Shown: positions 3,716-19,718 of the stretch, piece after piece
Position numbering within the stretch: the stretch's first letter is position 1
Layout of the letters: every line of letters starts with the position of its first letter
NCBI GenBank assembly: GCA_003278855.1
Contig: QCCU01000007.1
Coordinates: forward strand, 1 to 64,000
Reading direction: 5' to 3'
Length of the DNA stretch: 64,000 nucleotides
Source: Prochlorococcus sp. AG-347-M23
GTDB lineage: Bacteria; Cyanobacteriota; Cyanobacteriia; PCC-6307; Cyanobiaceae
Made by a program: the position numbers and the translations under genes
Notes under the pieces: model-generated
Told to the model about the DNA's origin: nothing
What the model saw: only the letters and a program-made list of their open reading frames with translations
The model's database searches: none

Positions 3716-4446
3716 TGGGACATAAAATACATCCTTCTGGACTAAGATTAGGCATTACACAAGAGCATCGCTCTAAGTGGTTTGCTACTTCTAAAACATA
3801 TCCAATTCTTCTCCAAGAAGATTTTAAAATTCGTAACTTCATACAAAAAAAATATGGAGCAGCGGGAATTAGCGATGTTTTAATAGCTAGAAAAGCTGAC
3901 CAACTGGAACTTGAATTAAAAACAGCAAGACCAGGAGTTATAGTTGGAAGACAAGGAAGTGGTATTGAAGAATTAAGATCTGGCATTCAAAAAACCATAG
4001 GGGATAGAACAAGGCAAGTTAGAATAAACGTTGTTGAAGTTGAACGCGTAGATGCAGATGCTTTTTTACTAGCTGAATATATTGCGCAACAACTTGAAAA
4101 AAGAGTCGCCTTTAGAAGAACTATAAGGATGGCCTTGCAAAGGGCTCAAAGGGCTGGAGTCTTAGGTCTTAAAATTCAAGTCGGTGGCAGGTTGAATGGT
4201 GCTGAAATAGCTAGAACTGAATGGACTAGAGAAGGTAGAGTTCCATTACATACTTTGAGAGCTGAAATTGACTATGCAACACGTGAAGCTAATACAACTT
4301 ACGGTGTTCTAGGCATTAAAGTTTGGGTTTTCAAAGGTGAAGTTCTACCTAAAGAAGAACAAACTATCCCTGTGGGTGCGAGCCCTAAGAGGAAAGCTAG
4401 TAGAAGACCTCAGCAATTTGAGGATCGTTCAAATGAGAATTCATAG
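3715..4446 (+). CDS. rpsC: 30S ribosomal protein S3
   Basis: The 243-residue protein starts [20 protein letters not shown] and contains the KH-domain GxxG loop in [17 protein letters not shown] (about residues 71-87). S3 forms the mRNA entry pore with S4 and S5 and contributes to helicase activity. The gene starts on the last base of the rplV stop. The C-terminal tail is basic and low in complexity, as in other cyanobacterial S3 proteins. Confidence 0.97.
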
Positions 4447-4457
4447 GAGGTATAAAA

Positions 4458-4940
4458 ATGCTTAGTCCAAAACGTACTAAATTCCGTAAACAACATAGAG
4501 GCAGAATGAGGGGTGTAGCCTCAAAAGGCAATACTATTGCATTCGGTCAATTTGCTCTCCAAGCTCAAGACTGTGGCTGGGTAACTGCACGTCAGATTGA
4601 AGCAAGCAGAAGAGCTATGACTAGATATATCAAACGTGGCGGTCAAATCTGGATAAGAATATTTCCTGATAAACCTGTAACCATGAGACCTGCCGAAACC
4701 AGAATGGGTTCTGGTAAAGGTAATCCAGAGTTTTGGGTCGCAGTTGTAAAACCTGGAAGAATACTTTTTGAAATGGGTGGTGAGGATATCACTGAGGAAA
4801 CTGCAAAGGAAGCTATGCGTCTGGCTCAATACAAACTTCCTGTAAAAACAAAATTTATCTCCATTGATAAAAATCTAGAAAATTCCTCCCAAGAAAATAC
4901 AAAACAAAGTAAAGAATCTCAAGAGGAGGTTAAACAATGA
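4458..4940 (+). CDS. rplP: 50S ribosomal protein L16 with extended C-terminal tail
   Basis: The first ~137 residues are ordinary L16 ([19 protein letters not shown], then [20 protein letters not shown]). L16 helps place tRNA at the A and P sites and contacts the stalk base. The ORF continues to 160 residues with a Gln/Glu/Ser-rich tail ([18 protein letters not shown]) absent from the E. coli protein, probably disordered. An AGGAGG site precedes the ATG. The 3' end overlaps rpmC by four bases, so the tail's coding DNA also carries the rpmC ribosome-binding site. Confidence 0.96.
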
Positions 4941-5155
4941 AAAACTCTGAGTCACTCAAGGAATTTAAAAAATTAAATTCTGATCAAATCACTGAAAAGA
5001 TTGACCAATTGCGAAAAGATCTTTTTGATTTGAGATTCAAGCAAGCTACAAGACAGCTCAATGAAACTCATAAATTTAAAATTATCAAGAAACAAGTTGC
5101 GCAATTACTTACTCTCAGTAAGAGTCAATCTGCTTCTAAAACAACTTCTGATTAA
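4937..5155 (+). CDS. rpmC: 50S ribosomal protein L29
   Basis: This small two-helix protein of 72 residues has the L29 signature [21 protein letters not shown]29 lies at the tunnel exit beside L23. It overlaps rplP by four bases and has an AGGAGG site within the rplP tail codons. Its normal place between L16 and S17 supports the call. Confidence 0.95.
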
Positions 5156-5164
5156 TTATTAGTT

Positions 5165-5431
5165 ATGGCACTCAAAGAAAGAATTGGTACTGTTGTCAGC
5201 GACAAAATGGATAAAACAGTTGTTGTTGCTGTTATTAACAGATATCCACATCCCACTTATAAAAAAATTGTAAGTAGAACTACACGATATAAAGCGCATG
5301 ATCCAGAAAATACATGTGTTTTAGGTGATCGAGTTAAAATTAGAGAAACTAGACCGCTCAGCGCTCATAAAAGATGGGCAATAGAAGAGATTCTCAATAA
5401 AACAAGTCAAGCTAAGGAGGTTAAAAAATGA
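5165..5431 (+). CDS. rpsQ: 30S ribosomal protein S17
   Basis: The 88-residue OB-fold protein has the S17 start [21 protein letters not shown] and the C-terminal motif [15 protein letters not shown]. It is a primary 16S rRNA-binding protein. It is nine bases behind rpmC and overlaps rplN by four bases. Confidence 0.96.
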
Positions 5432-5793
5432 TTCAACAAGAAACTTATTTAACGGTTGCTGATAATAGCGGAGCAAAAAGACTTCAATGTATTAGGGTTT
5501 TAGGCTCTAATAGAAGGTATGCACATGTCGGAGATGTAATCGTAGCAACTGTAAAAGATGCTCTTCCTAATATGGGAGTTAAGAAATCTGAAGTTGTTAA
5601 AGCAGTTATTGTCAGAACTAAAGCAACATTAAGAAGAAATACTGGTAATTCAATCAGATTTGATGATAATGCTGCGGTTTTGATTAATGAAGATAAGAAT
5701 CCAAAAGGTACTAGAGTCTTTGGTCCTGTAGCTAGAGAACTTCGGGATAAAAATTATACAAAGATTGTTTCTCTTGCTCCGGAGGTGATTTAA
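5428..5793 (+). CDS. rplN: 50S ribosomal protein L14
   Basis: The 121-residue L14 starts [20 protein letters not shown]. Its conserved end region includes [25 protein letters not shown]14 forms an intersubunit bridge with 16S helix 14 and is the docking partner of the silencing factor RsfS. The start overlaps rpsQ and the stop directly abuts the rplX ATG. Confidence 0.97.
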
Positions 5794-6150
5794 ATGTTGG
5801 ATTCATTAAAACAAAAGAAAAATTTCCAGAGAATAAAAATGAGAATCAAAACTGGAGATTTGGTAAAAGTAATTAATGGCAAGGACAAAGGTAAAACTGG
5901 TGAGGTTTTGAAAACTATCCCTCTTGAAAATAGAGTAGTAGTAAAGGGAATTAACCTTAGGACTAAACATGTTAAACCAACTCAGGAAGGAGAAACTGGA
6001 AGAATACTTACAGAAGAAGCATCTTTACATGCATCAAATGTAATGTTCTTTTCAAAGGATAAAAATCTTACAAGTAAGATTGAGTACTTTATTGATAAAG
6101 AGGGGGTTAAGAAAAGAAGACTGAAGAAAACTGGTGAAGTAATTGATTAA
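5794..6150 (+). CDS. rplX: 50S ribosomal protein L24
   Basis: This is a KOW-domain protein with the canonical core [19 protein letters not shown] at residues 16-34. The first 15 residues ([15 protein letters not shown]) extend beyond most L24 proteins. I keep the ATG at 5794 because a strong GGAGGTG site sits six bases upstream, while no such site precedes the internal ATG. L24 starts 50S assembly at the exit tunnel. It is followed by an unusual 74-base gap before rplE. Confidence 0.95.
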
Positions 6151-6191
6151 TTTTTCATCAGAAACCAGATTTCAACTTTTTCTAATTTATC

Positions 6192-6213
6192 AATTCTGAC
6201 AAAGACCAGAATT
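6192..6213 (+). promoter_or_regulatory. Inverted repeat in the rplX-rplE gap
   Basis: AATTCTG (6192-6198) and CAGAATT (6207-6213) form a perfect 7-bp stem with an 8-base loop, ending 11 bases before the rplE ATG. The 74-base gap breaks a tightly packed run, and no clear Shine-Dalgarno site precedes rplE. In E. coli the translational repressor S8 binds the mRNA at this same L24-L5 junction. An S8 target is a positional inference; I did not match the S8 consensus base by base. Confidence 0.4.
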
Positions 6214-6224
6214 AACAAAAAATT

Positions 6225-6764
6225 ATGACTCTAAAAAATCGCTACAAAGAATCAATAAGACCAAAACTTTTAAAGGACCTTGGTCTTAAAAATATTCATC
6301 AAGTACCTAAAGTTGTCAAAGTCAACGTTAACAGAGGTCTTGGTGAGGCAGCTTCGAATTCGAAAGCTCTTGAAGCCTCTTTAAATGAAATGGCAACAAT
6401 TACAGGACAAAAGGCTTTAGTAACTAGGGCCAAAAAAGCTATCGCGGGTTTTAAAATTCGTGAAGGTATGCCAATTGGTTGTACTGTAACTTTGAGAGGA
6501 GACAGGATGTATTCTTTTTTGGAGAGATTTATAAATCTAGCTTTACCAAGAATAAGAGACTTTAGAGGAGTTAATCCAAAAAGTTTTGATGGGAGAGGTA
6601 ATTACACCGTTGGCGTGAAAGAGCAATTGATTTTTCCTGAAATCTCTTTTGATAAAATAGATTCAATAAGAGGTATGGATATAACTATTGTCACTAGTGC
6701 AAAATCAGATCAAGAAGGTAAAGCTCTTTTGCAGGAGTTAGGAATGCCTTTTAGTAAGAATTAA
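6225..6764 (+). CDS. rplE: 50S ribosomal protein L5
   Basis: The 179-residue L5 has the typical [25 protein letters not shown] start and the conserved [25 protein letters not shown] region (split in the middle of the protein). L5 binds 5S rRNA and contacts P-site tRNA. The gene following it in E. coli, rpsN (S14), is absent here, and rpsH comes directly after nine bases. The start has no obvious ribosome-binding site and lies behind a hairpin. Confidence 0.97.
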
Positions 6765-6773
6765 ATTAAAACT

Positions 6774-7175
6774 ATGTCAAATCACGATCCTATTTCCGAT
6801 ATGCTTACTCGAATTAGAAATGCGAGTCAAAAAAAGCATACAACCACAACAATCCCAGGTTCAAAAATGTCCTTAAGTATCGCCAAAGTACTTCAAAAAG
6901 AGGGGTTCATTTCTGATATTAATGAGGAAGGTGAAGGTTATAAATCACAAATAATACTCGGCCTCAAATATAGTGGAAAAAATAAATTTCCTACTATTCG
7001 ATCCATGCAAAGAGTTAGTAAACCTGGTTTGAGAATATATAAAAATACTAGAGGTTTACCAAAAGTTCTTGGAGGTCTTGGAGTTGCCATAATATCAACT
7101 TCTAAAGGCGTTATGAGTGATCGCGATGCTAGAAAGCAAGGCATTGGCGGCGAAGTCCTCTGCTATGTTTATTAA
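6774..7175 (+). CDS. rpsH: 30S ribosomal protein S8
   Basis: The 133-residue S8 starts with [20 protein letters not shown] and ends with the family motif [20 protein letters not shown]. It is a primary binder of 16S helix 21 and, in enterobacteria, the repressor of the spc operon. It directly follows rplE because rpsN is missing from this locus. Confidence 0.97.
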
Positions 7176-7187
7176 GGAGAATTAATC

Positions 7188-7727
7188 ATGTCAAGAATCG
7201 GAAAAACACCAGTACTTATTCCAGAGAAAGTTACAGTTGATTTTGATGGATTAACAGTTACAGTTAAAGGTCCTAAGGGTGAGTTAAAACGTCTCATGCC
7301 TGAGGGAGTTAGTTTTGATAAGAAAGATAATACTGTTGTCGTAAGTCCTACAACAACCAAAATACATTCAAGGCAGAGACATGGTTTATGTAGAGCTTTA
7401 ATTGCAAATATGGTTGAAGGGGTTACTCAAGGTTTTTCAAAGAAACTAGAAATTGTAGGCGTTGGATCAAGAGCACAAGTAAAAGGTAAAAATCTAGTTG
7501 TAAGTGCAGGATATAGTCATCCTGTAGAAATGATCCCCCCTGATGGTATAACATACAAGGTTGAGAGTAATACAAACGTTACTGTATCTGGAATTGATAA
7601 GGAAATTGTTGGTAATGAAGCAGCAAAAATCAGATCAATTAGACCTCCAGAACCATATAAAGGTAAAGGAATTAAATATCATGATGAGAGAATTCTCAGA
7701 AAAGCTGGTAAATCTGGCAAAAAATAA
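7188..7727 (+). CDS. rplF: 50S ribosomal protein L6
   Basis: The 179-residue protein has a tandem duplicated fold. It starts [20 protein letters not shown], and the C-terminal domain ends with [21 protein letters not shown]6 binds near the sarcin-ricin loop and the factor-binding site. An AAGGAG site lies seven bases before the ATG. Length and order are normal. Confidence 0.97.
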
Positions 7728-7741
7728 TTCCAATTAAAAAA

Positions 7742-8110
7742 ATGACCAAACTTTCTAGGAAATTACAAACCCAAAAAAGACATAGAAGATTAAGGAGATT
7801 CTTAATTGGAGATGCAAATCGTCCAAGATTGTCTGTTTTTCGCTCTAATAACCATATTTATGCTCAGGTTATAGATGATAGCGCTCAAACAACTATTTGC
7901 TCAGCTTCAACTGTTGATAAAGAACTAAGAGAAAAATCTGAGAAATTACCCTCTGATTGTAATTCTTCTTCCATTGTTGGAAAATTATTAGCAAAGAGAG
8001 CGATAAAAAAAGGTATTAAGCAAGTAATTTTTGACCGTGGAGGTAATTTATATCACGGTAGAGTAAAAGCACTTGCAGATGCTGCTCGTGAAGCTGGCCT
8101 AGAATTCTAA
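7742..8110 (+). CDS. rplR: 50S ribosomal protein L18
   Basis: The 122-residue L18 has the conserved [20 protein letters not shown] region and the end motif [21 protein letters not shown]18 binds 5S rRNA with L5. The gene lies between rplF and rpsE, as in other bacteria. Confidence 0.97.
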
Positions 8111-8126
8111 CTCTTAATTTTTTACT

Positions 8127-8747
8127 ATGACTGACACTCCAACAAAACAAGAAATTCAATCCAAGAACGATAACGTTCCTGGAGCTACGCCCGTTGAACA
8201 AAAAAAGAATAATCGTAATGATCGAAAAAGAAATAGAAGAGGTGATTCAAAAAATCTAGAGAGAGATTCTGATTGGCAAGAAAGAGTTGTTCAAATTCGA
8301 CGCGTTTCTAAGACTGTTAAGGGTGGTAAAAAAATGAGTTTTAGAGCAATTGTTGTTGTAGGTAATGAGAAAGGTCAAGTTGGTGTTGGAGTCGGTAAAG
8401 CAGGGGATGTTATTGGTGCGGTGAGAAAGGGAGTTTCAGATGGTAAAAAGAATCTTGTTAGGGTTCCCTTAACCCCAAACAATTCAATACCGACTTTATC
8501 TATTGGTCGAGATGGTGCTGCTAATGTACTAATTAGACCAGCTGCCCCTGGTACAGGTGTAATTGCTGGTGGTTCAATAAGGACAGTTTTAGAATTAGCC
8601 GGCATCAAAAATGTCTTGGCAAAAAGATTGGGTAGTAAAACACCTTTGAATAATGCAAGAGCTGCTATGGTAGCTCTTTCACAATTAAGAACACACAAAT
8701 CCGCCTCAAGGGAGAGAGGGATCTCACTTGAACAGCTCTATTCTTGA
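8127..8747 (+). CDS. rpsE: 30S ribosomal protein S5
   Basis: This 206-residue protein has a Lys/Asn-rich, probably disordered N-terminal extension (about 45 residues) before the conserved S5 core [21 protein letters not shown]5 takes part in decoding fidelity and the mRNA entry helicase. rpmD (L30), normally next, is missing, and rplO follows directly. The stop lies five bases before the rplO ATG. Confidence 0.97.
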
Positions 8748-8752
8748 AAATT

Positions 8753-9211
8753 ATGACTTCAACATTAAATACACTTAAATCAAACTCTGGCTCGAGAAAG
8801 AAAAAATTAAGAAAGGGTAGAGGTATTGCAGCCGGTCAGGGTGCATCATGTGGTTTTGGAATGAGAGGACAAAAGTCACGTTCTGGAAGACCCACACGTC
8901 CTGGTTTTGAAGGTGGCCAAATGCCTCTTTATAGAAGAGTTCCAAAATTAAAGCACTTTGAAATAATTAACCAAAAGAACTTTTCCATAATTAATTTAGA
9001 AAAATTAAATGATTTCAAAGATAATGATACTGTTAACCTAGACTCACTAGTTAAGAAAGGATTAATCTTCAAGCCCAAATTCCCATTAAAAATCCTTGGT
9101 AACGGAAAACTTAATGTAAAGTTAACAGTCCAAGCTCATGCATTTACAAAAGTTGCAAAACAAAAAATTGAGGATGCTGGTGGATCCTGCGAGCTTATAA
9201 ATAATAAATAA
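8753..9211 (+). CDS. rplO: 50S ribosomal protein L15
   Basis: I use ATG 8753 (152 residues, [20 protein letters not shown]) rather than the TTG at 8744, because the TTG would overlap the rpsE stop and adds non-conserved residues. The glycine-rich, basic N-terminal part ([20 protein letters not shown]) is typical of L15, a 23S-binding assembly protein. It lies between rpsE and secY, with rpmD missing. Confidence 0.95.
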
Positions 9212-9240
9212 ATTTACAGAAAATTTAGGTAACTTTCAAA

Positions 9241-10560
9241 ATGTTTGTAAACAAAAGTAGAAATCCTAGCGCTTCTGAAATACTTTCCCAATTATTTTTA
9301 AATAAAGAGCTGAGGAGTAGAGTTTTAACTACTCTAGGTCTCCTCCTTTTAGTAAGACTTGGTATTTATATCCCTATGCCTGGTATTGATAGGGTTGCTT
9401 TTAAAAGTTTTATAGATCAAGGGGGGCAATTAATAGGTTTTTTAGATATTTTTACTGGAGGAGGAATTTCAACCTTAGGAATATTCGCATTAGGCATACT
9501 TCCCTTTATTAACGCATCAATTATTATTCAGCTTCTCACAGCTTCATTGCCTGTGCTTGAAGATTTACAAAAAAATGAAGGAGAAGCGGGGAGAAGAAAA
9601 ATTGCTCAAATAACTAGATATGTTTCATTAGGATGGGGTTTTTTGCAAAGTATAATTTTTTCCTTAATTCTCAGACAATATGCAATTGAGGGGATAAGTG
9701 AAACTACATTTGTCTTGCAAACCTCAATTGCCTTGGTTACTGGCTCAATGTTAGTAATGTGGTTTAGTGAAATTATTACGGAAAAAGGGATAGGTCAAGG
9801 TGCTTCACTGGTAATTTTTTTGAATATTGTTTCGACTTTACCTAAGGCTCTAAGTTCAACCATTGAAAAAGCTCAAACCGGCGATAGAGGAGATGTTTTA
9901 GGTATAGCAGTTTTACTTGGAGTATTTTTACTGACAATTGTTGGGATCATTTTTGTCCAAGAGGGAGCAAGACGCATTCCTATTGTTAGTGCAAAAAGGC
10001 AGATAGGAAGTGCAACACTACTTCCTACAAGGCAAAGTTATTTACCTTTGAAATTAAATGCAGGAGGAGTCATGCCTATAATATTCGCATCTGCTTTAAT
10101 CTTTTTACCTATAACTATCGCAAATGTTACGGGTAATCCAGTCTTAATAAAGTTAGCCAGTAGTTTAAATCCCGGATCTTCTAATCCATGGCCATATGCT
10201 CTTACATTCTTCTCCTTGATTTTAGGTTTCTCCTATTTTTATGCATCTCTTACTATCAATCCAGTTGATGTAGCTTCAAATTTAAAGAAAGGAGGAGTAG
10301 CGATTCCAGGAGTTAGACCAGGAACAAATACAGCCAACTACCTATCAGGTATACAAAATAGGTTGACTTTATTGGGAGGATTATTTCTGGGTTCAGTAGC
10401 TATAATCCCAGCTGCAGTAGAAAGAGCTACTAATGTTCAGACTTTTCAAGGTCTAGGAGCAACTTCATTACTTATTCTTGTGGGTGTTGCTATAGATACT
10501 GCTAAGCAAATTCAAACTTATGTTATTTCACAAAGGTATGAGGGATTAATTAACAATTAA
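9241..10560 (+). CDS. secY: Preprotein translocase subunit SecY
   Basis: The 439-residue polytopic protein has about ten hydrophobic segments. Signature stretches include [29 protein letters not shown] and [14 protein letters not shown]. SecY is the channel of the Sec translocase and serves both plasma and thylakoid membranes in cyanobacteria. It keeps the normal position at the end of the spc block. The last base of its TAA is the first base of the adk ATG. Confidence 0.97.
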
Positions 10561-11108
10561 TGAAGAAACATATACTATTTTTAGGAGCTCCTGGAGCAGG
10601 GAAAGGGACTCAAGCCGATTTGCTAAGTCAAAGTAATTCTTATTTACACCTTTCTACGGGTGAATTATTAAGAAAAGAAATCGAAATGAATACTGCCCTT
10701 GGTATTCAGGTAAAGGATATTATGAATCGAGGGGAACTTGTTAGTGATGAACTTGTATTAAAGATAGTAAGACAAAATTTAGTCAAGGATAATAAAGGTT
10801 GGATTCTAGATGGTTACCCTAGAAATTTATCTCAAGCAAATTCATTGAATGAAGTCTTAAATGAAATAAATCAACCTTTAGAATTGGTTTTTTATTTAGA
10901 TATTCCCGAAGAAGTACTAATTCAGCGTTTGCTTTTAAGAGGTAGAAAAGATGATACGGAAGAGACAATTAGAACAAGAGTTGATATTTATAAAAAAACT
11001 ACAGAACCATTGATTCAATATTTTAAAGATCTCTCATTGTTAGAATATATTGATGCTGATAGAGATTTAAAAACTATTTCCTCTGATATCAAACAAAAAA
11101 TGGCTTGA
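10560..11108 (+). CDS. adk: Adenylate kinase (short form)
   Basis: The 182-residue enzyme interconverts 2 ADP with ATP and AMP. The P-loop [12 protein letters not shown] is at residues 8-19, the AMP-binding region includes LSTGELLR, and DGYPRN follows. The protein lacks the zinc-type LID insertion and is shorter than the ~214-residue E. coli enzyme, as is common in cyanobacteria. The start overlaps the secY stop by one base. infA, which often lies between adk and rpmJ, is not in the 45 bases that follow. Confidence 0.95.
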
Positions 11109-11153
11109 TGATGATGTAGAATATAGTATTAACGTTTTATTTGTTAAACCCCT

Positions 11154-11270
11154 ATGAAGGTCAGATCTTCAGTCAAAAAAATTAGTCCTGACGATCAGAT
11201 CGTGAGGAGAAGAGGTAAAATCTATGTTATTAACAAGAAAAGACCTCGTAATAAACAGCGTCAGGGTTAA
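11154..11270 (+). CDS. rpmJ: 50S ribosomal protein L36, cysteine-free form
   Basis: ATG 11154 opens a 38-residue frame starting [20 protein letters not shown] and ending [11 protein letters not shown], clearly L36 by its ends and its place between adk and rpsM. Canonical L36 carries a zinc ribbon (three Cys and one His, as in KICEKC). Here the positions read KISPDDQ and KKRPRNKQ, so there is no cysteine or histidine at all. The protein is thus the zinc-independent type. No strong ribosome-binding site is visible. Confidence 0.94.
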
Positions 11271-11311
11271 ATTTCAACCCTTAATTTCAAACTTTTATTT
11301 ATTCAAAACAC

Positions 11312-11677
11312 GTGGCCAGGATTGCAGGAATTGACATACCTCGCGAAAAGCGAGTTGAAATTGCACTTACATACGTCTATGGAATTGGTTTAACGAGATC
11401 AAAGCTAATTCTTGCTAATACGGGTGTAAACCCTGATACTCGCGTCAAAGACCTTTCAGATTCAGATGTTCAAAAGCTCAGAGGCGCTACAGAAGAATTC
11501 ACTTTAGAAGGGGATTTGAGAAGAAAAGAGGGAATGGCTTTAAAACGTTTACAGGATATAGGGTGTGTAAGAGGCAGAAGACATAGAATGAGTCTTCCAG
11601 TAAGAGGTCAAAGAACTAGAACCAACGCAAGAACAAGACGGGGTTCTAGGAAAACAGTTGCTGGAAGAAAAAAATAA
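11312..11677 (+). CDS. rpsM: 30S ribosomal protein S13
   Basis: The 121-residue S13 begins at a GTG ([20 protein letters not shown]) and ends with the basic tail [20 protein letters not shown]. It forms intersubunit bridges and contacts P-site tRNA. GTG 11312 is chosen because the following residues match the universal S13 start. It opens the alpha-operon segment, in which rpsD is absent. Confidence 0.97.
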
Positions 11678-11721
11678 ATAACTAAATCTATTTACAAATT
11701 GAAGTATTAAATTAAAACATC

Positions 11722-12114
11722 ATGGCAGCTACAGTAAAAAAAACAGGTTCAAAGAAATCCAAACGTAATGTACCCAATGGCGTGGTACATATCCAAAGCA
11801 CATTTAATAATACTATCGTCTCAATTACTGACACCTCTGGTCATGTAATTTCTTGGTCTTCTGCAGGCGCAAGCGGATTTAAAGGCGCTCGGAAAGGTAC
11901 GCCATTTGCTGCTCAAACAGCTGCTGAAGCTGCAGCTAGAAGAGCACTTGATCAAGGTATGAGACAAATAGAAGTGCTAGTTAGAGGTCCTGGCGCAGGT
12001 AGGGAAACGGCCATAAGAGCTTTACAAGTGGCCGGATTAGAAATAACTCTAATAAGAGATGTAACTCCATTACCTCATAATGGATGTAGAAGACCTAAAC
12101 GGAGACGCGTTTAG
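11722..12114 (+). CDS. rpsK: 30S ribosomal protein S11
   Basis: The 130-residue protein has the hallmark [15 protein letters not shown] and the conserved end region [20 protein letters not shown] (here [13 protein letters not shown]). S11 forms part of the mRNA exit platform. It lies 44 bases after rpsM and 54 before rpoA. Confidence 0.97.
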
Positions 12115-12168
12115 GTCTTAACCACATTCTCAACCCCCCAAAAAAAACTTTTAACCTCATTATTTTCC

Positions 12169-13107
12169 GTGTTGCAATACCAGATTGACAGAATCGACCA
12201 TCAAATAGCAGATGATCGCTCCCAAACAGGAACTTTTTTAATTGGTCCTTTAGAAAGGGGGCAAGCTACAACTTTGGGTAATTCCCTAAGAAGAGTCCTT
12301 ATGGGAGGACTTGAAGGGAGTGCAGTTACTGCAGTAAGAATAGCAGGAATTAATCACGAATATGCCACTATACCTGGAGTTAGAGAAGACGTTTTAGATA
12401 TCCTGCTTAATTGCAAGCAACTATCAATAAATAGTTCTAATCCAGAACTCGAAATTGGTAGGTTAGTGGCGACTGGTCCAATGGAAGTGAAAGCAAATGA
12501 CATCCAATTCTCCTCTCAAGTTGAAATTGTTGATGGCGAAAAACCGATCGCGACTATCCAGGAGGGTCACAACTTAGAGCTGGAAATCCATGTTGAAAGA
12601 GGTGTTGGATATAGACCCGTAGACCGTAAGAGTGAAGAGACAACTGCGATTGATTTACTTCAAATAGATGCTGTATTTATGCCAGTTAAGAGAGTGAATT
12701 TTACGATTGATGAAACTGCTGTGGCAGAAGGGGGCACGGGACGAGAAAGATTAAAAATGGAAGTTGTAACAGATGGTTCAACGACTCCTGATGATGCTAT
12801 TGCTGAAGCTGCAAATCAGTTAATAGAACTTTTTCAACCCCTTGCTACTGTCACAATGGTTGAGGAAATACCTGAAGAACCTGAACCATCTCCTGAAGCT
12901 CAAATTCCTCTAGAGGAACTAAATTTGTCCGTTAGAGCATATAATTGTTTGAAAAGGGCGCAAGTTAACTCAGTTTCAGATTTAATGGGCTTCAGTTATG
13001 AAGATCTTCTTGAAATTAAGAACTTTGGCTCTAAATCTGCAGATGAGGTTATTGAGGCTCTTGAGCGCATCGGCATTTCTATTCCACAAAGCAGAACATC
13101 TGTTTAA
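12169..13107 (+). CDS. rpoA: RNA polymerase subunit alpha
   Basis: The 312-residue alpha subunit begins at GTG 12169 ([20 protein letters not shown]). The N-terminal assembly domain includes [18 protein letters not shown]. The C-terminal domain (from about residue 245) has the DNA- and activator-binding helix-hairpin-helix region [15 protein letters not shown] and [20 protein letters not shown] Pro/Glu-rich linker separates the two. It is cotranscribed with rpsK and rplQ by position. Confidence 0.97.
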
Positions 13108-13121
13108 CAATTTTAAAGATT

Positions 13122-13472
13122 ATGAGACACCAACTTAGAATTCCATTATTAAGTAAACCTGCTGATCAGAGGAAAGCACTTCTAAGAGGTTTAACTACTC
13201 AATTAATTAGGGAAGGTAGAGTAACTACAACAAAAGCTCGTGCTAAAGCTTTAAGAAATGAAGCTGAAAGAATGATTTCACTCGCTAAAGATGGGAGTTT
13301 GGCCTCTAGGAGAAGGGCTATTGGATATATTTATGATAAAAAATTAGTTCATTCATTATTTGAAAAAGCAAAGGAAAGATATGGAGACAGAGATGGTGGT
13401 TATACACGCATAGTAAGAACTGTATCTAGAAAAGGTGATAACGCTCAGATGGCCATAATCGAGCTTGTTTAA
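13122..13472 (+). CDS. rplQ: 50S ribosomal protein L17
   Basis: The 116-residue L17 starts [20 protein letters not shown] and has the [20 protein letters not shown] core. It sits near the tunnel exit on the solvent side. It lies 14 bases behind rpoA, the standard end of the alpha operon. Confidence 0.97.
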
Positions 13473-13510
13473 GTTAGTTCATTAAAGGGGCTTTTACTAA
13501 AAAATAACTT

Positions 13511-14317
13511 TTGAAAAGGGTAGCTTTACTAGTCCAATATGACGGATCTCATTATTCAGGTTGGCAAAAACAAAAAAATGCAACTACTGTTCAAGAAATT
13601 TTAGACAGAGCTCTCTTAAAAATTACTAACCATACAGTAAAGACTTTTGCAGCAGGTAGGACTGATGCTGGGGTTCATGCATCAGGTCAAGTAGTACACT
13701 TTGATGTTGATTGTGTTCTTCCAGGAAATAGTTATTCTGATGTCCTAAATAGTCTCTTACCCTCATCAATTAGGATCTTGGAATCAGTTGAGGTGAAAGA
13801 TAGTTGGCATGCATGCTATTCAGCAATGTATAGACATTATAGATATGTCATTAATAACAGTAAATTCCCAAACTTGTTCATCAATAATTGGTCATGGCAT
13901 AGATATCAAAGAGTATTAGATGAAGTTTTAATGTTAAATGCATCCAAGAAAATGATTGGAGAACATGATTTTTTTGCTTTTCAGAAAAGTGGTAGTAATA
14001 GAACAACCTCAATTACAAAAATAAAAAATATAGATATTAAAAGAGTTGAAGATTTGATTTTTGTTGATATTAAAGCTACTGGTTTTCTATATGGAATGGT
14101 CCGCTTAATTATTGGTCAACTAGTTTTAGTTGGAGAAAACAAAATATCGCCAGAAATTTTTACAGATAGATGGGTAAACAAAAAGAAAAATGATGTTAAA
14201 GAATCTGCTCCAGCTAAGGGGTTATGTTTTGTAAATGCTGTTTATGAAGAAAATGTTTTTAAAAAGATTAATAACAATGATTTTTTTCCTGTATTTTTAA
14301 TTAAGGGTTTTTCTTAA
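13511..14317 (+). CDS. truA: tRNA pseudouridine(38-40) synthase
   Basis: The 268-residue enzyme begins at TTG 13511 (MKRVALLVQYDGSHYSGWQK). The catalytic aspartate lies in FAAGRTDAGVHASGQVVHFD at about residues 47-66. TruA converts uridines 38-40 of the anticodon arm to pseudouridine. The C-terminal part FLYGMVRLIIGQL is typical. Placement between rplQ and rplM is a conserved cyanobacterial arrangement. It is followed by a 111-base gap holding a good promoter candidate. Confidence 0.94.
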   Translation: MKRVALLVQYDGSHYSGWQKQKNATTVQEILDRALLKITNHTVKTFAAGRTDAGVHASGQVVHFDVDCVLPGNSYSDVLNSLLPSSIRILESVEVKDSWHACYSAMYRHYRYVINNSKFPNLFINNWSWHRYQRVLDEVLMLNASKKMIGEHDFFAFQKSGSNRTTSITKIKNIDIKRVEDLIFVDIKATGFLYGMVRLIIGQLVLVGENKISPEIFTDRWVNKKKNDVKESAPAKGLCFVNAVYEENVFKKINNNDFFPVFLIKGFS

Positions 14318-14359
14318 GTTTTAATTAAGAGAATTTTTTGTGAAAATCATTCAAAACTG

Positions 14360-14389
14360 TTGTTTAATATTCCTTCAATAAGGTAGAAT
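14360..14389 (+). promoter_or_regulatory. Candidate sigma-70-type promoter for rplM-rpsI-rpmE-prfA
   Basis: TTGTTT (14360-14365) and TAGAAT (14384-14389) are separated by 18 bases, in the only gap above 100 bases between rplC and prfA. This would give an internal transcription start about 30 bases before the rplM ATG. Confidence 0.45.
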
Positions 14390-14428
14390 TTAATATTAAA
14401 TTTAAATTTATTTGCAGAAATTTGGTAA

Positions 14429-14860
14429 ATGAATAAAACAATTACTCCATCTTTAGAAACAATTGAAAGGAATTGGTTTTTAGTTGACGCAAAAGATAAG
14501 ACGCTTGGTAGACTTGCTACAGAAATCGCAACTGTATTGAGAGGTAAGAATAAACCAACATTTACACCTCATCTAGATACTGGAGATTTTGTCATTGTAG
14601 TAAATGCAGAGAAAGTTGAGGTAACAGGTAAAAAAGCATCACAAAAATTGTACAGGAGACATTCTGGAAGACCAGGAGGAATGAAAATTGAAAAATTTGA
14701 GTCTTTACAAGAAAGAATTCCTGAAAGAATTATCGAGCAAGCTGTTAAGGGCATGCTGCCTCATAATTCTTTAGGAAGACAGCAGTTTAAAAAACTAAAA
14801 GTTTATAAAGGTACTGATCATCCTCATGCTGCTCAGAATCCTGTATTATTAAATAGTTAA
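14429..14860 (+). CDS. rplM: 50S ribosomal protein L13
   Basis: The 143-residue L13 has [24 protein letters not shown] (conserved core) and the end motif [13 protein letters not shown]. It is an early assembly protein of the 50S subunit. It precedes rpsI by nine bases, the universal L13-S9 pair. It is likely served by the promoter just upstream as well as by readthrough. Confidence 0.97.
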
Positions 14861-14869
14861 TTTATCAAA

Positions 14870-15280
14870 ATGAATAGTCAAATAAAAAACAAAGCTGTGT
14901 ATTGGGGAACTGGAAGAAGAAAAACTTCAGTAGCTAGAGTTCGCTTGATTCCAGGAAATGGAATTATAAAAATTAATGGTCGTTCTGGAGATGATTATTT
15001 AAACTTTAATCCCCTGCACTTAAATTCAATAAAAGCACCTTTGCAAACATTAGGCCTTGAAAATTCTTATGATATTTTGGTAAATGTTTTTGGTGGTGGA
15101 TTGACTGGCCAAGCAGATGCTATAAAGCAAGGTGCAGCAAGGGCACTTTGTGAATTATCTCCTGACAATAGGAAACCGCTCAAAACGGAAGGCCATCTGA
15201 GTAGAGATCCTAGAGCTAAGGAAAGAAGAAAATATGGTCTTAAAAAAGCAAGAAAAGCTCCTCAATTCTCTAAACGTTAA
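14870..15280 (+). CDS. rpsI: 30S ribosomal protein S9
   Basis: The 136-residue S9 contains [19 protein letters not shown] and ends in the invariant [18 protein letters not shown], whose terminal arginine contacts the P-site tRNA anticodon loop. It is paired with rplM in the usual order. Confidence 0.97.
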
Positions 15281-15293
15281 AGGAATTTAAATT

Positions 15294-15554
15294 ATGCCAA
15301 AATCAGAAATTCATCCAAAATGGTATCCAGATGCAAAAGTTATTTGTAATGGAGAAGTTGTAATGACTACAGGCTCCACCCAGCCTGAATTACATGTTGA
15401 TGTTTGGAGTGGAAATCATCCCTTCTTCACTGGAACTCAAAAGATTCTTGATACAGAAGGTAGGGTTGATAGGTTTATGAAAAAATATGGAATGGGTTCA
15501 GCTAATTCAGCCACATCAAAAGATCAAAAAGAAGAAAAAGATTCTAAAAAATAG
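15294..15554 (+). CDS. rpmE: 50S ribosomal protein L31, zinc-ribbon-less form
   Basis: The 86-residue protein starts MPKSEIHPKWYPDAKVICNG. In zinc-binding L31 the next residues give CxC and CxxC (as in VCSKCHPFYTG). Here only one cysteine remains, and the second site reads VWSGNHPFFTG, so the zinc site is not complete. This form is usual in cyanobacteria as far as I know. The Lys/Asp/Glu tail is probably disordered. It lies between rpsI and prfA. Confidence 0.95.
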   Translation: MPKSEIHPKWYPDAKVICNGEVVMTTGSTQPELHVDVWSGNHPFFTGTQKILDTEGRVDRFMKKYGMGSANSATSKDQKEEKDSKK

Positions 15555-15581
15555 AATTTTCAAAATTAAGCACAATTTCAA

Positions 15582-16676
15582 TTGGAATACTCAACATTAA
15601 TTGCAAGGTTGAAAACTGCTTCAGAAAGTTTTGAAAATTTGGAAGTGCAACTTGCAGATCCTGATATAGCTAATGATCCAAAAAAATTAGAATCAATAGC
15701 AAGAGAAAGGTCAAAATTAGAACCTTTGGTGATTGATTTTAATAAGTTGCTTGATACTGATAAAGAAATCGAAGATTCAAAAAATCTATTAAAAGAGAAT
15801 AGAAATGATAAAGAAATGGAATCTTTGATAAATGAGGAGTTAATAACTCTAGAGGAATCTAAGAATGAACTGATTCAAAAAACCACAATCGCCTTATTGC
15901 CAAAAGACCCAAGAGATGAAAGAAGTGTGATGTTAGAAATCAGAGCCGGTGCTGGAGGTAATGAGGCTTGTATCTGGGCGGGTGATTTAGCAAGAATGTA
16001 TGAAAGATATGGGCAAAAAATTGGATGGTCTGTAAAACCTGTTAGTGCTTCCGAGTCAGATATGGGTGGATTTAAGGAGTTAGTTATCTCCGTTAAAGGA
16101 GATTCAGTATATAGTCAACTTAAATTTGAGGCTGGTGTACATAGAGTTCAAAGAGTTCCAGCTACTGAATCACAAGGTAGAGTTCACACCTCTACTGCTA
16201 CAGTTGCCGTTATGCCTGAGGCTGATCCTGTTGAAGTTAAAATTGATCCAACAGATCTAGAGGTTGGAACAGCAAGATCAGGAGGTGCAGGGGGACAAAA
16301 TGTTAATAAGGTAGAAACAGCTATTGATCTTCTCCACAAGCCCACAGGAATAAGAGTTTTTTGTACTCAAGAGAGATCACAATTGCAAAATCGCGAACGA
16401 GCAATGGAAATTTTAAGAGCTAAATTGTATGAAATTCAATTAAAAGAAGCGAATGCAAAAGAGAGATCACAAAGGCTTTCCCAGGTTGGAACAGGTGATA
16501 GAAGTGAAAAAATCAGAACTTATAATTTTAAAGATAACAGGACAACTGATCATAGATTAGGTTCCAATTTTTCTCTTGAGCCAATTCTTGCTGGTCAATT
16601 AGAAGAAGTGATTAATGCATGCATAGCTCAAGAACAAAAAAGAATGATGGAAGATTTTAATAAAGAAGTAAATTAA
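15582..16676 (+). CDS. prfA: Peptide chain release factor 1
   Basis: The 364-residue protein begins at TTG 15582 ([20 protein letters not shown]). The GGQ catalytic loop is in [15 protein letters not shown] at about residues 233-247, and the stop-codon-reading tripeptide region is [11 protein letters not shown]1 ends translation at UAA and UAG. It is the last gene of the ribosomal run and is separated by only ten bases from the end of the convergent HNH gene, with no obvious terminator hairpin between. Confidence 0.96.
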
Positions 16677-18513: not shown

Positions 18514-18522
18514 ATAAGAACT

Positions 18523-18611
18523 GGAGAGGTGGCTGAGTGGTTGAAAGCGGCTCCCTGCTAAGGAGTTACAGGAGGTAACTTTTGTCGAGGGTTCGAATCC
18601 CTCCCTCTCCG
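18523..18611 (+). tRNA. tRNA-Ser(GCU)
   Basis: This is an 89-base class II tRNA. The acceptor GGAGAGG pairs with CCTCTCC (18604-18610) and is followed by the discriminator G. The anticodon stem GGCTCC/GGAGTT encloses the loop CTGCTAA, with anticodon GCT (reads AGC/AGU). The long variable arm and the T-arm GGTTCGAATCC are present. CCA is not encoded. The last 11 bases form part of a 12-bp direct repeat that recurs 1.1 kb downstream. Confidence 0.96.
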
Positions 18612-18612
18612 T
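18601..18612 (+). repeat. Left att-like direct repeat (tRNA 3' end)
   Basis: CTCCCTCTCCGT covers the 3' acceptor strand and discriminator of the tRNA-Ser plus one base. It is identical to 19707-19718, and the flanks differ on both sides of the 12 bases. Confidence 0.65.
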
Positions 18613-18728
18613 TATTAATCGAAATTAGAGAAAATCATATACCATTCAAATACCCTGCTATATCTACCATGTGGTAGTTTTGGAGAGATCAAGATCATTC
18701 ATAACATACCACGAAGTTTCAGATAATT

Positions 18729-18774
18729 GGTGGACAATTGAAGGGATAATCCAAATTAAGTGGGGGGACAATCC
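18729..18774 (+). repeat. Left GGGGACAAT-type repeat pair
   Basis: GGTGGACAATTGAAGGGATA followed by ATCC (18729-18752) and TGGGGGGACAATCC (18761-18774). The first unit aligns with 19615-19641 if GACA is inserted. The two pairs flank the cargo genes. Such G-rich ACAAT strings next to a tRNA-integrated element may be arm-type sites for a recombinase or its directionality factor, which is inference. Confidence 0.5.
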
Positions 18775-18856
18775 TAGAAATGCCTTTTAGTTTTATATAG
18801 TAATTGCTTAGTTTTCTATGTTTAAGAAGAGTTTCTATGTTTAATAAAGTGATGGA

Positions 18857-18940
18857 ATGAATGAATCTCTCAATACTGTCATGGCTAAAAAAAGATAATT
18901 GACAGTCGATCTAAAATAAGAGGCAATTAGCTCTTTTTTT
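18857..18940 (+). promoter_or_regulatory. Attenuator-like leader with short peptide frame
   Basis: A 13-codon frame (18857-18898, MNESLNTVMAKKR) ends in a copy of the downstream gene's start: ATGGCTAAAAAAA occurs at 18881 and again at 18941. Perfect arms ACTGTCA (18875-18881) and TGACAGT (18900-18906) enclose that copy. They are followed by AAGAG (18918-18922)/CTCTT (18931-18935) running into seven T's that end exactly at the ATG 18941. The order peptide frame, hairpin, hairpin plus T-run, gene resembles an attenuator. No promoter was identified. Confidence 0.4.
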
Positions 18941-19222
18941 ATGGCTAAAAAAAAATGGAAAAAAGTTTTCAACTTAAATTCTTATGAATGGTGGAGAAAT
19001 CATCGAAGAGTTGTTACTTTTGGTGGATTTTTAATTTTGTTTGCTTGGTATATAAGTCCAGTTATTCAAGAAGCAAATTATAAAAATAAGTGTATTAGAT
19101 ACTTAACTAAAGAATTTACCGTAAATCCTCCTTTTGGCGATGAAGGAAAATCAGGATTAACGCCTAAACAAGTTGCCGAAGCAAATGCCTATAGATTTTG
19201 TAATCACATAGGACCAGATTAA
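18941..19222 (+). CDS. Small single-pass membrane protein, unrecognised (island cargo)
   Basis: I do not recognise this 93-residue protein. The basic N-terminus (MAKKKWKKVFNLNSYEWWRN) is followed by one hydrophobic segment at about residues 26-42 (VTFGGFLILFAWYISPV), so the remaining ~50 residues (with two cysteines and a Pro/Gly-rich patch) probably face the periplasm or lumen. The stop is followed immediately by the ATG of the next gene (TAAATG), so the two form an operon. The start follows the T-run of a hairpin. Whether it is expressed is unknown. Confidence 0.65.
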   Translation: MAKKKWKKVFNLNSYEWWRNHRRVVTFGGFLILFAWYISPVIQEANYKNKCIRYLTKEFTVNPPFGDEGKSGLTPKQVAEANAYRFCNHIGPD

Positions 19223-19603
19223 ATGAAACGATTACTATTCATACCTTTGTTATTAGGTTTTATTCCTGCAGCTAATGCAGGCATATATATTTACCCTTTA
19301 TTTAAACAAGGAATAGAAGTTCGCTGTTTAGATAATGAGCCAAAACATTTAATTTCATTCAAAGCAGGCAGGGTTATGAAGTTTGAAGATTATGGAGATA
19401 ACAAATATAAATTTCCAGAGGTGTTTTTATATCCAGAGAAAACTAATAAGGAATATTCTTATTTCCCAAGTACTGCGGGTACAAAATGTAGCTATAGAAA
19501 ACTTACAAGAAAAGAAAGAGAAAATTATAGAAAAATGGCTCTAGACATTTGTCGTGGAAACGACTTTAATGCAAAAAGAAAGTTTTGTTATGGGTGGAAT
19601 TAA
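19223..19603 (+). CDS. Small secreted cysteine-containing protein, unrecognised (island cargo)
   Basis: The 126-residue protein has a good Sec signal peptide: MKRLLFIPLLLGFIPAANAG, with likely cleavage after ANA (residues 17-19). The mature part has four cysteines (VRCLDN, TKCSYR, DICRGN, RKFCYGWN), enough for two disulfides, and is rich in Lys, Tyr and Phe. I know no family for it. It abuts the membrane-protein gene at 18941. The two may act together at the cell envelope, which is inference from the layout only. Confidence 0.65.
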   Translation: MKRLLFIPLLLGFIPAANAGIYIYPLFKQGIEVRCLDNEPKHLISFKAGRVMKFEDYGDNKYKFPEVFLYPEKTNKEYSYFPSTAGTKCSYRKLTRKERENYRKMALDICRGNDFNAKRKFCYGWN

Positions 19604-19612
19604 ATGAAATGC

Positions 19613-19642
19613 TTGGGGGACAATTCAGGGGACAATAATCCC
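19613..19642 (+). repeat. Right GGGGACAAT-type repeat pair
   Basis: TTGGGGGACAATTC (19613-19626) is followed at once by AGGGGACAATAATCCC (19627-19642). It matches the left pair at 18729-18774 with small changes, so the cargo is bracketed by direct repeats inside the outer 12-bp repeats. Confidence 0.5.
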
Positions 19643-19706
19643 GATAACTCTCTAAAAATTCGTTCATGAGAATTCATAGTCATTCATTAGGATTCAACTC
19701 CTAGAA

Positions 19707-19718
19707 CTCCCTCTCCGT
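19707..19718 (+). repeat. Right att-like direct repeat
   Basis: CTCCCTCTCCGT, identical to 18601-18612. The TCCTAGAA in front of it (19699-19706) also occurs inside the island at 18772-18779, directly after a GGGGACAA string. Confidence 0.6.

Follow-up and report, generated by a model that had tools for sequence, protein, structure and literature searches.

A putative small non-autonomous integrative cassette at the tRNA-Ser(GCU) gene of Prochlorococcus sp. AG-347-M23

The locus and its insertion

The window, a stretch of 64,000 nucleotides from Prochlorococcus sp. AG-347-M23, carries a tRNA-Ser(GCU) gene followed by an insertion. The features are given below with their strand; numbers with L denote the loci used for comparison.

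18522–18612, + strand: tRNA-Ser(GCT), that is tRNA-Ser(GCU), the integration target (ARAGORN; Rfam RF00005)
18601–18612, + strand: left core CTCCCTCTCCGT (attL copy)
18612–19717, + strand: integrated element of 1,106 bp, missing from empty sites
18612–18896, + strand: left arm, common to L037, L119 and L120; its first ~150 bp also in L099
18730–18772, + strand: left arm repeats at 18730–18738 and 18742–18750 (spacing 12, 3 mismatches) and GGGGACAAT at 18764–18772
18897–18940, + strand: island leader TTGACAGTCGATCTAAAATA with a small stem-loop and a T run, the left cargo edge
18941–19222, + strand: ORF of 93 aa, hydrophobic stretch near the N-terminus by eye; relative in L220/L213
19223–19603, + strand: ORF of 126 aa, signal-peptide-like start by eye; matches in 24 of 266 genomes, its own included
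19599–19613, + strand: right cargo edge TTAAATGAAATGCTT, common to the putative island donor and the right arm of L120
19604–19717, + strand: right arm and core, alignable with L120 and L099
19616–19636, + strand: right arm pair GGGGACAAT-TCA-GGGGACAAT, exact, spacing 12
19707–19718, + strand: right core CTCCCTCTCCGT (attR copy)

The original prediction started from an exact 12-bp repeat of the tRNA end. Both copies of CTCCCTCTCCGT, one at the tRNA-Ser end and one 1,106 bp further on, are the sole ones in the 1,505,696-base assembly, which is 93% complete. The two ORFs between them showed no mobility-gene match and the cassette contains no integrase, in line with the initial description. The alr, HAD and cobJ genes named as surroundings flank the site in related loci as well, the closest named loci being Prochlorococcus single-cell genomes. 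A degenerate T-arm proposed at 19690–19701 was ruled out: this is arm DNA of the element, which aligns with L099 and L120 and differs in other elements. An Rfam scan of the element detected only the tRNA itself and, on its antisense strand, one match that stayed below threshold.

Empty sites and turnover

The locus set comprised 80 named loci obtained via cobJ, 30 via the tRNA and 80 further stretches, 190 in total; the 30 tRNA-derived loci were among the matches listed, and the set is not a random sample. The tRNA was matched in 263 of the 266 genomes of the genus. With the window counted, 184 sequences had the tRNA pattern; the seven loci without it include L121, which has a tRNA variant. 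Eight short duplicate loci (L001, L002, L113–L118) were omitted and loci with identical ~360 bp around the tRNA end were dropped. The resulting 138 distinct Prochlorococcus loci still include near-copies (L006/L022; L012/L057/L140/L179).

In 72 of the 138 loci the site is empty, the state that the original prediction proposed to look for between alr and HAD. Another 59 carry inserts of 179–8,322 bp and seven do not reach HAD. The HAD stop lies 34–40 bp past the tRNA in the empty loci (38 bp in 35/72), and removal of the 1,106 bp from the window would give the same distance. The 11-mer core is identical in 72/72 empty and 59/59 inserted loci, part of it being demanded by the tRNA search pattern. 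Cargo other than that of the window is present between the same repeats in other loci, and arrays split by additional core copies occur in L015, L028, L045, L050, L077, L083, L084 and L121. Of the 59 inserted loci, 31 show a clean right junction with HAD; in the other 28 it is degraded or unrecognised, so many units at the site have decayed. The predicted site-specific integration at tRNA-Ser(GCU) is solid: empty sites, alternative cargo, tandem arrays and breakpoints at the 12-mer were all found.

On a tree of alr, a single gene adjoining the site, the 128 loci included (57 occupied, 71 empty) require at least 36 state changes, and branches with good support alone force 22 of these. When the labels were shuffled, the mean was about 42 changes, and 20–23 of 500 shuffles were as low as the observed value; the occupied or empty state is thus slightly clustered. 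The loci nearest to the window are L007 and L009, both empty, followed by the occupied loci L006 and L120; the element in L006 bears an integrase. With empty nearest loci and a state that turns over, the relatives do not all carry the same 1.1 kb. The tRNA-Ser(GCU) site is an integration hot spot.

Frequent state changes on the alr tree are also expected if homologous recombination in the flanks swaps occupied and empty alr-tRNA-HAD segments, integrase events being old and rare. The flanks are similar enough for such an exchange, with alr 82–98% in most loci. It does not account for the many different cargoes, for junctions this precise or for arms of fixed geometry, however, and is quite improbable as the source of the pattern.

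Paired repeats in the arms

Pairs were defined as 9-mers with at most one mismatch at a spacing of exactly 12 bp. They were present in 38 of 66 left arms (0.18 expected from shuffles) and 27 of 55 right arms (0.12 expected). Other spacings from 9 to 20 gave 0–2 pairs each, and none of the 72 empty loci had a spacing-12 pair at the same offset. The geometry is fixed: left pairs are located 112–127 bp past the core, with one at 158, and right pairs 91–102 bp ahead of the core. The left pair of the window has three mismatches, fails the one-mismatch rule and was not counted; a third copy, GGGGACAAT, follows it.

The repeat word varies between elements. GTGTGGCGA is found in both the integrase-bearing L005 and the integrase-less L023. 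Other words are TTGTTGGGA in L006, GGGGATGAA in L015 and GTTGTGACG in L028, and the word types GGGTAGGAA, GGTGGGTAA and GGGGATAA are mostly in integrase-less units. The word of the window, searched as GGGGACAAT-N3-GGGGACAAT with at most one mismatch, gave six matches in five of the 266 genomes, each in a tRNA-Ser(GCT) element (reversed control: 1). The carriers are the window, L119 (G049), L120 (G051, both arms), L099 (G236) and L121 (G255). The pairs are read as putative arm-type sites of an integrase.

Integrases and cargo at the site

Tyrosine recombinases were detected in 5 of the 59 inserted loci (L005, L006, L015, L022 and L028), are related to one another and have the invariant R, HxxR, H and Y. 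The elements of L006 and L022 are near-identical. L121, outside the 59, also encodes a tyrosine recombinase with these residues. Pfam Phage_integrase was found in L005 and L015, the two scanned of the five, and in L121. Judged by similarity to the L005 copies, resolvase-like genes accompany 5/5 and AlpA-like genes 4/5 integrase elements. For the arm DNA-binding domain PF13356, the L121 integrase gave a weak match under the Pfam cut-off (E 6.8e-5), and the Pfam scan reported none for the L015 integrase. The predicted structure of the latter has a mean pLDDT of 55. A weak match to one integrase (E 0.0048) came from a profile search of the PDB.

No integrase was detected in the other 54 inserted loci by tblastn (four integrases as queries) or by a profile of five sequences, a search that could miss a distant one and saw the seven loci not reaching HAD in part. 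The inserts of the 54 have a median length of 1.4 kb, and 48 of them stay below 4 kb. Scanned representatives of the cargo at the site encode a carbamoyltransferase (L016), a polysaccharide lyase (L012), polysaccharide export (L043), an arylsulfotransferase and a sulfotransferase (L055), a D12 methyltransferase next to DUF7687/DUF7690 (L023), a SAD/SRA-HNH protein and an exo/endonuclease-family protein (L120) and a methyltransferase (L094).

Neither a cognate integrase nor a close relative of the island integrases was found in the 93% complete assembly of the window genome. One PF00589 protein was detected, of 389 aa (G000:C1:112465-112884; L238). It is located amid housekeeping-like genes and was not picked up by the island-integrase profile. 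As this sole detected tyrosine recombinase is not of the island kind, the element may at present be unable to move in this cell.

The element family and its mobilisation

A related left arm with unrelated, integrase-less cargo is present in four elements: the window, L037 (a 146-aa ORF; repeat word GGGGATAA), L119 (577- and 97-aa ORFs; right arm of the L015 type) and L120. The integrase-bearing relative is L121, a four-unit array on the minus strand (reverse-strand 4055–15800); the right end of its last unit was not found. Its tRNA and three internal cores have a common variant, CTCTCTCTCCG. Element 2 of L121 combines a window-type left arm and a tyrosine recombinase with a right arm of the GGGTAGGA type. 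Hence no known integrase is flanked by both window arms, and arms appear to recombine. L119, like L121 element 2, has two repeat types on one element. Fragments of an integrase lie in unit 4 of L121, which also has matches to two small RNAs, Yfr10 and Cyano-1.

L099 is a cargo-free unit of 219 bp that consists of a left arm, one pair and a right arm. Aligned with the window, it is identical at 122 positions of its left 140 bp and at 80 of 104 in its right part. Seven such cargo-free units of 179–227 bp occur in six loci, with exact pairs in L029, L083 (two units) and L099 and two-mismatch pairs in L124, L081 and L084. They may result from deletion between left and right pairs or may be a working minimal form.

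The window element may be the remnant of an autonomous element that lost its integrase by internal deletion and no longer moves. The cognate integrase missing from the genome, the degraded right cores in many neighbours at the site and the integrase fragments in L121 unit 4 would agree with this, and the cargo-free units indicate that deletions between arms probably occur. Yet both cores and the right repeat pair of the window are exact. Moreover, the integrase-less family has some 325 bp in common on the left, among them the leader, which is not shared by L121 element 2. These units thus look like a separate lineage rather than independent deletions of that element. A remnant is therefore unlikely.

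The original prediction had left two options, mobilisation in trans or the decayed end of a larger element. The first fits better, because both arms are present with their repeats, related left arms border four unrelated integrase-less cargoes and an integrase-bearing relative exists in L121; the second fits less. Mobilisation in trans is the best reading of the comparisons. The stretch 18612–19717 is probably (at roughly 0.7) a small non-autonomous integrative cassette, inserted at tRNA-Ser(GCU) by a recombinase supplied in trans. This source is suggested since the recombinase gene is absent from the cassette and no close relative was found in the genome. A tyrosine recombinase would bind the paired arm-type repeats and recombine at the last 11–12 bp of tRNA-Ser(GCU). 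It would come from a related integrase-bearing element.

Cargo and capture boundaries

PADLOC and NCBIfam gave no match for either ORF, and a known defence role was rejected on the empty PADLOC search. One Pfam match (E 0.25) and one PHROGs match (E 0.26) on the two ORFs were taken as chance. The search for relatives covered 266 genomes for the 126-aa ORF, and the fetched loci and viral contigs for the 93-aa ORF. Eight of the 18 stretches around matches of the 126-aa ORF hold a tRNA. This ORF is located between a tRNA end and its repeat in L220 (tRNA-Pro) and L222 (tRNA-Cys), and L220 has both ORFs.

The homologies of the window overlap narrowly at both cargo edges. Homology with the arm family (L037, L119 and L120) extends from element position 1 to about 325 and homology with L220 begins at about 286; they share only the ~45-bp leader at 18897–18940. 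On the right, homology with L222 extends to about position 1,000, whereas the right arm of L120 is homologous from about 988 onward, an overlap of only ~14 bp (TTAAATGAAAYGCT). The cargo looks captured from other islands, and we infer from these boundaries that cargo is exchanged by recombination at short repeats shared with them. The two ORFs would have entered at the leader on the left and at the ~14 bp on the right.

The 16-base core of the leader was present at 82 sites in eight closed genomes (at most one mismatch; reversed control 0), and the leader occurs in 6 of the 59 inserted loci. The next ORF of at least 50 aa starts 41–46 bp from the leader start in 18 of 38 aligned copies, and at 42 bp in the window. 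Rfam did not list the leader in the stretches searched. It may act as a terminator-start unit or mark a spot of recombination. By eye, the stem letters change between copies and the leader often stands just after a stop codon. A sigma-70 promoter (TTGACA) was rejected, as no −10 box was seen by eye at normal spacing. A 48-bp repeat reported from Prochlorococcus islands may be this leader; the repeat was not found in the literature searched.

The cassette could also be a miniature phage satellite that is packaged by a helper phage, and excerpts of PMC11389934 place tycheposons among the proposed phage-satellite families. Such a satellite, or a prophage remnant, would have phage-like genes. The PHROGs match at E 0.26 was the only one, and neither ORF matched a PHROGs family better than chance. 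Scans of IMG/VR viral contigs confirmed no relative of the two ORFs, and the nine matches of the repeat pair there, none with a core within 400 bp, were taken as chance. Packaging as a satellite is very improbable. A viral origin of the cargo was rejected on the same scans with both ORFs.

Comparison with known systems

Tycheposons use a set of seven tRNA targets. The original prediction regarded them as relatives by logic, and the cassette shares with them integration into a tRNA gene with a direct repeat, cargo genes and location in islands; the integrase-bearing elements of the site also share the tyrosine recombinase. Two tycheposon features are missing. No recombinase is encoded inside the cassette (it is present in 5/59 inserted loci and L121), and its size is 1,106 bp in contrast to 4–200 kb as given in excerpts of PMC10872708. 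Without its own recombinase and at this size, the cassette is not classed as a tycheposon. Its best reading is an element that acts like a non-autonomous tycheposon, tycheposon- or CIME-like and not a tycheposon by definition.

A cis-mobilizable element (CIME) has attL and attR and lacks integrase and transfer genes, as does the cassette. An integrase-bearing neighbour together with which it can move (accretion) is part of the definition; the window holds a single unit, and side-by-side integrase-bearing units do occur in L015, L028 and L121. The cassette fits a CIME except that no integrase-bearing neighbour adjoins it in this genome. The ssrA islands of Dehalococcoides consist of tandem units divided by repeats of the RNA-gene end, 15 without and 16 with an integration module, according to excerpts of PMC3146451. 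The tandem units, many without integrase, resemble these islands and the model of CIMEs and accretion in the same excerpts. The Dehalococcoides islands described there have a serine recombinase and are larger (PMC3146451), whereas the recombinases here are of the tyrosine type, the smallest units measure 0.2 kb and the arm repeats have words specific to the element. An additive flexible island of Methylophilaceae at tRNA-Lys has 20-bp tRNA-end repeats and contents of 330 bp to 42 kb and is similar in both its repeats and its variable contents; in the excerpts of PMC10872708, neither repeat pairs in arms nor units free of cargo are mentioned for it. Neither such cassettes nor such repeat pairs are described in the excerpts of PMC10872708, PMC3146451, PMC11389934, PMC2784084 and PMC2518516.

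The site bears on the traffic of single genes into and out of the islands of streamlined marine cyanobacteria. At the tRNA-Ser site, genes seem to come and go with borrowed machinery. If true, integrase-based surveys would overlook most units here, given that 54 of the 59 inserted loci have no detected integrase. In integrons, gene cassettes of one to a few genes form arrays and are moved by a recombinase whose gene lies elsewhere. Set side by side by description, the units at tRNA-Ser resemble them in small size, arrays and a recombinase elsewhere and differ in that their site is a tRNA end and a long arm flanks each side. A two-level, integron-like cassette system without an integron in Prochlorococcus, with a minimal module, cargo swapping and word-specific integrases, is conceivable but doubtful. 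The cargo-free module of ~220 bp (core, left arm, one pair, right arm) would be the minimal mobile tRNA-Ser site. Genes of the island pool would come and go between the arms via short shared leaders, and each integrase would move only modules with its own repeat word. Close relatives offer natural empty, cargo-free, single-gene and arrayed states. Together with the predicted binding code of one repeat word per integrase and the mapped capture boundaries, these states make mobilisation in trans and gene capture directly testable.

Repeat pairs at other tRNA genes

Spacing-11 pairs were detected by script in both arms of the tRNA-Cys element L222 and, as one pair in one arm, in the tRNA-Pro array L231; further tRNA-Pro elements showed such pairs on visual inspection only. 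The script found no such pairs in the two tRNA-Thr stretches and the tRNA-Ser(cga) stretch. The L231 array is located at tRNA-Pro(TGG) on the minus strand (8079, 4389, 2114 and 774), and the tRNA end recurs three times in steps of 1.3–3.7 kb. The pairs near its unit ends, assigned largely by eye, differ between units.
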